From Candidatus Pelagibacter sp. TMED165 (GTDB lineage: Bacteria; Pseudomonadota; Alphaproteobacteria; Pelagibacterales; Pelagibacteraceae), in assembly GCA_002171035.2 (NCBI GenBank), contig NHHO02000017.1, positions 1 through 15,568 on the forward strand: DNA of 15,568 nt, given 5' to 3'. The notes below the pieces were generated by a model that saw nothing but the letters and a program-made list of their open reading frames with translations, was not told the DNA's origin and did no database searches. Positions within the stretch are counted from its first letter, which is position 1. Every line of letters begins with the position of its first letter. This document shows, one piece after another, positions 1 through 1,826 of this stretch. A program made the position numbers and the translations under genes.

Positions 1-53
1 AAGGCGCCGATTTAACCAAATTGCAGGCGCTTTATAAATGTAGCTAAACAGGA
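1..53 (+). ncRNA. SAM-II riboswitch aptamer upstream of metX
   Basis: S-adenosylmethionine-binding aptamer of the SAM-II class, a compact H-type pseudoknot that lowers methionine-gene expression when SAM is abundant. Stem P1 pairs 1-8 with 26-33 (eight pairs, one G-U). The loop carries the conserved GATTTAACC (9-17) and TTGCA (21-25). The 3' strand TGTAGCTAAA (39-48) supplies the second pseudoknot strand: 21-25 can pair with 39-43. Compared from memory with the marine SAM-II reference used for the crystal structure, segment lengths are identical and the last P1 pair is changed from U-A to C-G, a compensatory change. It is followed by a purine-rich AGGAGA (50-55). The gene downstream, metX, is the classic target of this class. 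The promoter must lie left of the window, and the 5' end may extend beyond base 1. Confidence 0.93.
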
Positions 54-71
54 GATAGCCCGGTTTAGCTG
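41..71 (+). promoter_or_regulatory. Putative antiterminator of the SAM-II switch
   Basis: AGCTAAAC (42-49), part of the conserved 3' strand of the SAM-II aptamer, is perfectly complementary to GTTTAGCT (63-70); T41-G71 adds a wobble pair. This hairpin uses the loop and upper 3' arm of the downstream terminator and traps the terminator's 5' arm in its own loop, so the two folds exclude each other. SAM binding should lock 39-48 in the pseudoknot and free the terminator. Without SAM, 42-49 can pair with 63-70 and allow read-through into metX. The pairing is seen in the sequence; the switching is inferred. Confidence 0.7.
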
Positions 72-83
72 GGCTTTTTTTTT
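57..83 (+). terminator. Intrinsic terminator in the metX leader
   Basis: AGCCC (57-61) pairs with GGGCT (71-75). The stem can be extended inward by G62-T70 and G63-C69, leaving the loop TTTAG. Nine consecutive T (75-83) follow, of which T75 closes the stem. This is the most GC-rich hairpin in the window and a textbook Rho-independent terminator. It stops 2 nt before the metX ATG, so it must act as an attenuator of metX-metW-gloB controlled by the SAM-II aptamer rather than as the end of an upstream gene. Confidence 0.88.
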
Positions 84-85
84 AT

Positions 86-1213
86 ATGAACAAAAATAAT
101 GACAAAATTAAACACTTAATAATAAAAAAACCATTAAAGTTAGATTGCGGTACTATAATCGAAAACTATCCAATTGCATATGAAACTTATGGCAGTCTTA
201 ACAGCAACAAAGATAACGCAATCTTAATATTTCATGCTCTGACAGGAGATCAATTTGCTAGCGGAAAAAACCCTGTTACAAAAAGGGATGGTTGGTGGAA
301 TACAATTGTTGGAAAAAATAAATCTTTAGATACTAATAAATATTTTATTATTTGTGCAAATGTTTTAGGTGGATGCATGGGCAGTTATGGTCCTAGCTCC
401 TTAAATACTAAAACAGGTAAACCTTTTGGAACAAATTTCCCAATAATTACAATTAATGACATGGTTAATGCTCAATATAATTTATTAGATTTTTTTGAAA
501 TCGAAAAGTTATTTTGTGTCATTGGCGGTTCTATGGGTGGAATGCAAGTTTTGCAATTTGTTTCAAATTTTCCAAATAAAACAAAAAATGCTATTCCTAT
601 CGCTTGTACAGCTAGTCATTCAGCTCAAAATATTGCTTTTAATGAGCTAGGAAGACAATCAATAATGGCAGATATAAATTGGCAACGAGGAAAATATAAT
701 TTAAGTGATAATTCGCCCGACAAAGGTTTAGCGGTAGCTAGAATGGCTGCCCATATTACTTATCTATCAAAAAAAGGTTTGCAAGAAAAGTTTGGTAGAA
801 AGCTTCAGGAAAGAGACTCGCTTGAATTCGGATTTGATGCAGACTTTCAAATAGAAAGCTATTTGCGATACCAAGGTTCTATATTTGTTGATAGGTTTGA
901 TGCAAATAGTTATTTATATATCACAAGGGCCATGGATTATTTTGACTTAACAAAACAATTTAATGGAAATTTGTCTGCAGCATTTAAAAAATCAAAAACT
1001 AAGTTCTTGATTATATCGTTTACATCAGATTGGCTTTATCCTACTTCTGAAAATAGAGAAATAGTAATTGCTTTGAATTCAATAGGTGCCGATGTAGGAT
1101 TTGTTGAAATTAAATCAGACAAGGGACATGATTCTTTTCTTTTGGAGACTCCAGATTTTTTAAGCACAATCAAAAATTTTATAAATAATTCTTATGAGGA
1201 AAAAAATGAATAA
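86..1213 (+). CDS. metX: Homoserine O-acyltransferase MetX
   Basis: Cytoplasmic alpha/beta-hydrolase-fold enzyme that acylates the hydroxyl of L-homoserine from acyl-CoA, the committing step of methionine synthesis, giving O-acetyl- or O-succinylhomoserine for direct sulfhydrylation or the cystathionine route. Length 375 aa, normal for the family. The nucleophile Ser149 lies in GGSMGGMQ, the acid Asp315 in FTSDWLYP and the base His348 in KGHDSFLLE; other family blocks are FHALTGD (49-55) and ANVLGGCMGSYGPSS (91-105). ATG 86 is the first usable start: the frame upstream is closed by TAG at 56-58 with no other start codon. No Shine-Dalgarno lies next to it; the closest purine run, AGGAGA, is about 30 nt upstream, before the terminator hairpin. 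The last 8 nt overlap metW. Whether acetyl-CoA or succinyl-CoA is the donor cannot be told, because many proteobacterial MetX proteins are succinyltransferases. Confidence 0.96.
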   Translation: MNKNNDKIKHLIIKKPLKLDCGTIIENYPIAYETYGSLNSNKDNAILIFHALTGDQFASGKNPVTKRDGWWNTIVGKNKSLDTNKYFIICANVLGGCMGSYGPSSLNTKTGKPFGTNFPIITINDMVNAQYNLLDFFEIEKLFCVIGGSMGGMQVLQFVSNFPNKTKNAIPIACTASHSAQNIAFNELGRQSIMADINWQRGKYNLSDNSPDKGLAVARMAAHITYLSKKGLQEKFGRKLQERDSLEFGFDADFQIESYLRYQGSIFVDRFDANSYLYITRAMDYFDLTKQFNGNLSAAFKKSKTKFLIISFTSDWLYPTSENREIVIALNSIGADVGFVEIKSDKGHDSFLLETPDFLSTIKNFINNSYEEKNE

Positions 1214-1826
1214 TGAATTTAATATTATATCAAAATTAGTACATAAAGACTCTAAGATCCTTGATGTTGGTTGTGGAGATGGTGAATTAATGAAATTGAT
1301 AAAAGATGTTAAAACCAAAAATATTAGAGGTTTAGAAATATCAAAATTCAATGTCCAAAAATGTATTTCAAAAGGACTTACCGTAATTGAAGGTGATGCA
1401 GAAAATGATTTGAAACAGTTTCCAAACCTTTCTTTTGATTATGTTATTTTAAATCAAACACTTCAAGCTTTTCTGAACCCTGAAAACGTAATTAATGAGT
1501 TGTTAAGAGTTGGTAAAAAAGCAATTGTAACTATTCCTAATTTTGGATATTGGAAAGTTAGATTGCAACTTCTGTTTAGGGGAACCATGCCAATTACAAA
1601 AAATTTGCCGAATGAGTGGTATAACACCCCAAATTTACACATGTGTACAATTAAAGACTTTTTTAATTTTTGTATTAAAAGAAAAATTAATGTCTATTCA
1701 GCGCTGGCTTTAAATAATGAAATAGATTCGAAAAATTGGAATAATAAGAAAATAAGTATAAATAAAAATAATCTTGAATATAAAAATTTTTTCTCTGAAT
1801 TAGGAATTTTTTTATTGGAGAGATAA
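1206..1826 (+). CDS. metW: MetW, methyltransferase-fold partner of MetX
   Basis: 206-aa protein with a class I SAM-dependent methyltransferase fold. Motif I is ILDVGCGDGEL at about residues 17-27, followed by an acidic strand end (GLEIS) and a post-motif TIPNFGYWKVR block typical of MetW. In many proteobacteria MetW is encoded next to MetX and is needed for, or stimulates, homoserine acylation; a methyl-transfer reaction has not been firmly assigned. The start at 1206 is preferred over the in-frame ATG at 1194 because GAGGA (1196-1200) sits 5 nt before 1206 and the product then begins directly with the family's N-terminus. It overlaps the metX stop by 8 nt, so translation is probably coupled, and it shares SAM-II control with metX. 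Confidence 0.93.
   Translation: MNNEFNIISKLVHKDSKILDVGCGDGELMKLIKDVKTKNIRGLEISKFNVQKCISKGLTVIEGDAENDLKQFPNLSFDYVILNQTLQAFLNPENVINELLRVGKKAIVTIPNFGYWKVRLQLLFRGTMPITKNLPNEWYNTPNLHMCTIKDFFNFCIKRKINVYSALALNNEIDSKNWNNKKISINKNNLEYKNFFSELGIFLLER

Follow-up and report, generated by a model that had tools for sequence, protein, structure and literature searches.

Positions 1–83 of the window (the whole stretch of 15,568 nucleotides analyzed here, from Candidatus Pelagibacter sp. TMED165) very probably form a SAM-II OFF switch that acts on metX by transcription attenuation. The observed basis comprises the sequence, its complementarity, conservation in two paralogous leader types, a promoter-like site in relatives and the predicted order of folding, from which we infer SAM binding, a co-transcriptional race and regulation. 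Without SAM, the 3′ strand of P2 at 42–49 would pair with 63–70 once the latter exits RNA polymerase; this pairing would remove the loop and the stem top of the upcoming terminator, and the polymerase would continue into metX. With SAM, the pseudoknot (P2b triplex plus P2a) would hold 42–52, whereupon the terminator at 57–75 would form before T75–83 and release an RNA of ~83 nt. Transcription seems to stop early with SAM because the binding-pocket strand is the same strand that otherwise blocks the terminator. What stands out is that the core strand that binds the ligand would be the one directed at the terminator apex. An earlier sequence-only reading had called a transcriptional SAM-II unusual, which does not hold in general, as the excerpts of printed literature consulted describe transcriptional SAM-II as common. 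The pairing 42–49/63–70 is unnamed in the excerpts of published text on SAM-II, figures aside. The window belongs to SAR11, and SAR11 bacteria are among the commonest in the sea.

Table 1 Features of the metX leader and the gene behind it (positions in the window).
Feature	Position	Strand	Basis and remarks
SAM-II P1 helix	1–8/26–33, part of 1–33	+	Sequence, fold, RF00521 alignment; G3–T31 wobble; encloses L1 and the P2 5′ strand
L1, GATTTAA	9–15	+	RF00521 alignment; identical letters in the SAM-II RNA of PMC8494917
P2 5′ strand, CCAAATTGC	16–24	+	Sequence; likeness to the printed SAM-II RNA (PMC8494917)
P2 3′ strand, AGCTAAACAGG	42–52	+	Sequence, RF00521 alignment, folds, relatives; 42–49 doubles as putative antiterminator 5′ strand
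Spacer between aptamer and terminator	53–56	+	Sequence
Putative antiterminator 3′ strand, GTTTAGCT	63–70	+	Sequence, folds, relatives; covers the terminator loop and the upper end of each arm
Intrinsic terminator hairpin	57–75	+	Stem 57–63/69–75, 7 bp with G62–U70 wobble; loop 64–68, TTTAG; −11.0 kcal/mol
T9 tract of the terminator	75–83	+	Sequence
metX, homoserine O-acetyltransferase-like, abhydrolase fold	86–1213	+	PF00561; first ATG (86) past the terminator

The 8-nt complementarity on which the sequence-only reading was built is exact: 42–49 (AGCTAAAC) is the reverse complement of 63–70 (GTTTAGCT), with an additional T41–G71 wobble. Its assignment of 63–70 to the 'loop side' of the terminator was right in so far as the loop is included, but 63 and 69–70 belong to the stem; because the stem is 57–63/69–75 and the loop 64–68, the strand spans the loop and reaches into the upper part of each arm. 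A terminator drawn with a 5-bp stem and 9-nt loop was rejected as weaker (−7.2 versus −11.0 kcal/mol for 7 bp and a 5-nt loop). By sequence and folds, the antiterminator helix 42–49/63–70 overlaps both P2 and the terminator and is thus exclusive with each. Within P2 we assume that CC at 16–17 can pair with GG at 51–52 as P2a and TTGC with GCTAA as P2b, and L1 (9–15) is presumably the SAM-II loop that forms the ligand-binding triplex. Base triplets between L1 and P2b are described for SAM-II in the part of PMC11508383 consulted.

The metX ATG lies 2 nt past the terminator T-run. We use the name metX because the sequence-only reading did so and metW (PF07021) adjoins the gene, rather than on the strength of a metX-specific model. 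A domain scan of eight of the proteins behind the leader gave a MetX-kind abhydrolase, MetW, a glyoxalase II-like protein, L21, Obg, an amino-acid kinase with a PUA domain, an aldehyde-dehydrogenase-type protein and an S41 peptidase. All 80 relatives of the window MetX that were kept of 565 came from Pelagibacteraceae (SAR11), at 76–81% identity.

The Rfam model RF00521 (SAM_alpha) aligned to 3–52 (model positions 10–63) with 23.3 bits and an E value of 0.0025, and the P1 stem, GATTT loop, TTGC and GCTAAA were present in covariance-model order. The window leader misses the Rfam gathering score of 36 bits, which is a curated threshold and no structural feature; scanning the window with Rfam at its standard threshold gives no match, as 23.3 bits falls below it. 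Five SAR11 leaders of another type directly 5′ of metX (L081–L085) scored 26.6–29.8 bits, likewise below the threshold. In this same SAR11 sample, a SAM_alpha match at E ≤1e-3 was present in 5/6 genomes and a match over the cut-off in 0/6, which means that the cut-off misses these metX leaders. The presence of a printed SAM-II RNA in L142, a locus of the same leader family, suggests that RF00521 has too strict a cut-off here. The genomic context is that of a methionine/SAM gene (metX, then metW), and a MetX relative stood behind the leader in 29/29 related loci of sufficient length. A SAM-II/SAM-V tandem was considered and rejected for the window: SAM-V was absent from the 12 Rfam matches up to E 10 in 1–300, and the ATG follows the T-run at 2 nt. 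A phage DNA search with window 1–1500 gave no match, and one strict sequence pattern run on viral contigs found none.

Complementarity alone is a ~0.5–1.4% event in the AT-rich window DNA because, among 3,000 random 27-nt window stretches compared with the 10-nt aptamer strand (GU allowed), at least nine pairs occurred in 15 and at least eight in 41; the true terminator site has nine. On sequence grounds, the stronger evidence for the pairing is its conservation, not the bare complementarity. Dinucleotide shuffles were applied to 131 leaders (the window plus 130 related loci, five of them of the paralogous type described below): at most 5/100 shuffles did as well in 53/57 unique strand/terminator combinations, and more than 5/100 in the other four.

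Relatives were gathered by querying 297 Pelagibacteraceae genomes with window 1–120, which matched at E ≤0.01 in 235. From the 131 listed places with E ≤4.1e-6, 130 loci were taken (one near a contig start was omitted), comprising 125 metX-type leaders (L086–L210, 124 genomes) and five of a second type (L211–L215). Among places listed at this cut-off, a metX-type leader was present in 124/297 of the genomes drawn. L188, with its 6-nt loop, was excluded from pair counts, giving 125 scored rows from 124 loci and the window. The proposed arrangement, in which a SAM-II aptamer is followed by a terminator ahead of metX and the 3′ strand of P2 serves as antiterminator strand, was borne out across these relatives, with at least five consecutive pairs in 124/124 scored leaders. 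Over the 125 rows (GU allowed), the run of consecutive pairs was five in 29, six in nine, seven in 71 and eight in 16; leaders that keep the terminator and lose the complementarity were not found, though 29/125 rows have just five pairs. The terminator had the shape GCCCAG-TTTAG-CTGGGC or a variant in all scored metX-type leaders.

Among 24 unique metX rows, pairs 43/69 to 46/66 were intact in 24/24, and apex variation fell mostly at 64 and 65, with 66–69 always paired. Many metX leaders are down to 5–7 bp because pairs 47/65 (failing in seven unique rows), 48/64 (four), 49/63 (12) and 42/70 (four) fail in part. The spacer between aptamer and terminator took 38 forms among the 125 metX-type leaders. 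All metX leaders, drawn from a single family, are orthologous, and the conservation of the pairing may be by descent. A separate pattern concerned position 41: a loop other than TTT at 64–66 was present in 35/49 rows with C41 versus 2/76 with T41. C41–G71 could compensate mismatched loops, yet it may merely track clades and is not used as support.

A different metX SAM-II leader type (L001–L080 and L376–L405) was also observed. It is without the GC-rich terminator and has T6–T9 shortly 3′ of GCTAAA, followed by CTCACAATTCA or variants such as CTCTCAATTCA and CTCCAATTCA. The element CTCACAATTCA is complementary to aptamer TGAATTGCGAG (P2 5′ and P1 3′ strands), and in the printed folds AAAAAAAC/GTTTTTTT close a loop around GCTAAA. 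An element of this kind was present in 79/79 visible leaders of L001–L080 and, with a looser pattern, in 30/30 of L376–L405; it varies mainly opposite the mismatch. Because the element is 3′ of the T-run, it could hardly act by termination there, and this leader type is a candidate for a different expression platform.

Support for the pairing came from a paralogous SAM-II (the bhmT, SAM-II/SAM-V type), whose terminator stem, ACCACC/GGTGG or a variant, is unrelated to that of metX. The set combined four of L211–L215, 30 loci from a search with L212 (297 genomes, match in 155) and 20 hand-picked from the divergent end; its 54 rows represent 52 places, as L213/L328 and L215/L340 are duplicated, with L212 represented by L326 and unique counts unaffected. 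The terminator apex was again complementary to GCTAAA, with nine consecutive pairs in 43/54 rows and a minimum of four, in two rows; two of the nine pairs (50/62 and 51/61) are built in and prove nothing here because the stem-finding pattern fixed positions 61–62. Pair 49/63 was G–C in 12 and A–T in two (L367 and L374) of the 14 unique paralogous rows, and C–G in nine, T–G in three and mismatched A·G in 12 of the 24 unique metX rows.

When terminators were permuted among all 38 unique rows, the native 305/380 paired cells compared with a mean of 279.7 and were reached in 0/2,000 permutations, a result that leans largely on the one split between metX and paralogous types. Within the paralogous set, 123/140 cells were paired versus a mean of 119.0 (7/2,000 reached 123). 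Within the metX set, 182/240 were paired versus a mean of 182.0, which is no covariation and is explained by an aptamer strand that hardly varies. The covariation check that the sequence-only reading had proposed for 42–49 and 63–70 thus comes out empty within the metX set and finds support in the paralogous SAM-II. Judged from these alignments, compensation is visible between the two leader types; inside the paralogous type it is weak, and the metX type displays conservation, not covariation.

These data bear on the reading that the complementarity of the apex arose by chance and was then simply inherited, with a terminator that is constitutive or answers something else. The rate of 8–9 pairs in 0.5–1.4% of random stretches and the missing covariation within the metX set leave it some room, but the paralogous SAM-II combines an unrelated terminator stem with this very apex and with altered 49/63 pairs, and 66–69 stay constant while spacers vary. 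We consider this reading very unlikely.

The folding order predicted for the window was consistent with attenuation. The antiterminator had a probability of 0.98–1.0 at 3′ ends 68–74 and still 0.86 at 75, but dropped to 0.05 at 83; there the terminator reached 0.95 and so wins over the complete T-run. Holding 42–52 unpaired raised the predicted terminator to 1.0. With the last 12 nt hidden, the antiterminator reached at least 0.5 in 59/59 unique metX and 37/42 unique paralogous leaders, figures that are partly built in since hiding these nucleotides also hides the terminator 3′ arm. Over the full T-run it did so in 32/59 and 29/42, respectively, a mixed outcome. The modeled order fits a switch that would decide during transcription; ViennaRNA, which was used, is unable to model the SAM-bound pseudoknot.

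A promoter-like site, TTGA[C/T/A]-N16–19-TA within 60 nt 5′ of P1, was present in 124/124 metX-type leaders, a pattern that is loose for AT-rich DNA and was counted without a chance control; TTGACA was present in all 11 upstream regions printed. Given such a site upstream, the hairpin probably belongs to the metX leader rather than closing a different transcript. The window starts at P1, so its own promoter region lies outside. Read from the ATG past the T-run, MetX of 29/29 relatives with enough sequence aligned with the window MetX from residue 1.

A rival reading is dual control, in which attenuation would be joined by a SAM-hidden Shine–Dalgarno (SD) sequence (the purine run after GCTAAA; AGGAG at 50–54 in the window) serving the distant ATG past the terminator, as reported in Sinorhizobium meliloti metA. 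An SD-like tetramer (GGAG, GAGG, AGGA, AAGG, AGGG or GGGG) 4–16 nt 5′ of the post-T-run ATG was found in 0/125 metX-type leaders. In the system described in the consulted part of PMC9373788, the SD lies inside a SAM-II aptamer that a terminator follows, and translation begins at AUG2, 74 nt further along; an ATG between aptamer and terminator, like the one there, was present in 52/125 leaders, 50 of them in frame. Against dual control, the purine run is variable (commonest spacers AAGGGGAT, AAGGGAGAT, CAGGGTTTTT and AAAGGTTTTT) and P2a can account for the shared GG. The missing SD is also not special to metX because 4/7 other gene starts in the window, read by eye, have no clear SD either. Dual control is therefore a possible addition to attenuation that we regard as doubtful. 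As a side observation, the in-frame ATG of 50/125 leaders (for example L102, L142 and L144) lies directly past the aptamer purine run, and the window is among the 73/125 without an early ATG. Such an early start would prefix MetX with a short terminator-encoded peptide.

Leader and gene of the window disagree, as the two occur together in none of the relatives compared. Its leader (1–90) is 98% identical to that of L087, while the two MetX proteins share 67%. Genomes with this leader encode MetX 65–67% identical to that of the window (29/29), or 70–74% in further ones, and the window MetX is up to 81% identical to MetX of genomes carrying another leader. Compared by eye, the 95 listed genomes with MetX 75–80% identical gave no leader match at E <1e-8. 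Either the leader was exchanged by recombination or the contig end is a chimera. The metX of the window may not own this leader; the leader mechanism is unaffected.

We next weighed attenuation against the translational label that SAM-II carries in print. The SAM-II RNA printed in PMC8494917, which we take to be the Sargasso Sea metX RNA of PDB 2QWY used in crystal structure and folding studies, has an exact copy in L142 and another in L144, and each copy precedes GCCCAGTTTAGCTGGGC-T9, with the metX-frame ATG next; both are short loci that contain the MetX N-terminus only. This RNA belongs to the same leader family as the window and, in the consulted text, is labeled translational, yet it is natively followed by this terminator. 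A purely translational SAM-II, with the hairpin as a minor or constitutive attenuator, would agree with the excerpts of PMC6061858 and PMC10907184, in which metX SAM-II is termed translational, with the excerpt of PMC9373788, in which it 'probably' regulates translation, and with AGGAG in the window P2a strand. It sits poorly with the GCCCAGTTTAGCTGGGC-T9 behind the printed RNA in L142 and L144 and with the 73/125 leaders, the window included, that lack an ATG between aptamer and terminator. We judge a purely translational switch unlikely and retain attenuation.

Attenuation by the core strand may also bear on published behavior of the bhmT SAM-II/SAM-V tandem. According to the consulted part of PMC11508383, the bhmT SAM-II stops responding to SAM once the linker bearing the hairpin and U tract is included, and the SAM-V domain also exerts influence; the words terminator and anti-terminator are absent from that part. 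By our own reading, each of the three primers printed in that work has its target in L372. In L372, CCTGCTAAAGCG pairs with CGCTTTAGACAGG (8 bp plus 4 bp around one A), and the antiterminator has a probability of 0.99 over the T-run. The modeled L372-type antiterminator is a candidate cause of the silent SAM-II domain in the refolded bhmT RNA. Against a simple story, the folds predicted for the 150- and 190-nt contexts keep the antiterminator helix but open SAM-II P1, and the antiterminator does not explain in detail what primer 3, covering the U tract, brings about.

Taken as one proposal, the textbook SAM-II that hides a ribosome-binding site would natively be a transcription attenuator, its invariant ligand strand serving as antiterminator and the terminator apex as a conserved mimic of that strand's complement, and the same pairing would explain the SAM-silent SAM-II domain of the refolded full-length bhmT SAM-II/SAM-V RNA as an equilibrium artifact of a co-transcriptional switch. 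We think this joint proposal is probably, though by no means certainly, correct. Neither the native terminator behind the 'translational' metX RNA nor the antiterminator account of the silent bhmT domain is stated in the excerpts of published text examined.

The design was compared with SAM-II leaders across the class, where RF00521 matched at E ≤1e-4 in 137 of 289 alphaproteobacterial genomes; 110 leaders were used (30 supplied by the search and 80 hand-picked from the list). By eye, many of the 110 have a GGTCGG-type P2a 3′ strand that matches CCGACC in the terminator. P2a formed at least six contiguous pairs with the sequence ahead of the T-run in 66/93 leaders and in 67% of swapped leaders (mean 6.25 own versus 6.22 swapped, no difference); because swapped leaders do equally well, this count is no test. 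For the core strand, at least six pairs occurred in 16/93 versus 9% when swapped, and at least seven in 7/93 leaders with a T-run (for example L301, GCGGCTAA/TTAGCCGC). In the shuffle test, at most 5/100 shuffles did as well in 21/75 unique leaders; 34 leaders were scored as without a terminator by a script that misses some hairpins with a base before the T-run. As a side observation, in L301, L317 and L316 (the last by eye) the core strand NNNGCTAAA finds its complement in the terminator or at the terminator foot, in changed letters, as in the L301 pair above and in L316 (GCAGCTAAA/TTTAGCTGC). A design that sets core strand against terminator may have arisen more than once.

Among known systems, the closest are other SAM-II (RF00521) attenuators such as Agrobacterium tumefaciens metA and S. 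meliloti metZ, predicted in the consulted part of PMC9373788, which share the aptamer, the OFF logic and a terminator behind P2. In the excerpts of PMC2258182, PMC1273637 and PMC9373788, SAM-II 'enforces a distal pseudoknot' to reach its expression platform; many other alphaproteobacterial SAM-II leaders have the P2a GGTCGG/CCGACC pattern seen by eye, whereas SAR11 employs the core strand and the terminator apex. S. meliloti metA, as described in the same part of PMC9373788, likewise starts translation past a terminator and needs an SD within the riboswitch; an antiterminator could not be predicted for it in that work. The bhmT tandem of Ca. Pelagibacter ubique shares with the window a SAM-II plus terminator with the same apex complementary to GCTAAA, and differs in its terminator stem, its longer antiterminator and the SAM-V downstream. 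Outside SAM-II, the transcriptional preQ1-I riboswitch of Bacillus subtilis (PMC3905878, consulted in part) differs in ligand, aptamer and genes, and likewise relies on a small H-type pseudoknot whose folding has to precede that of a competing antiterminator hairpin.
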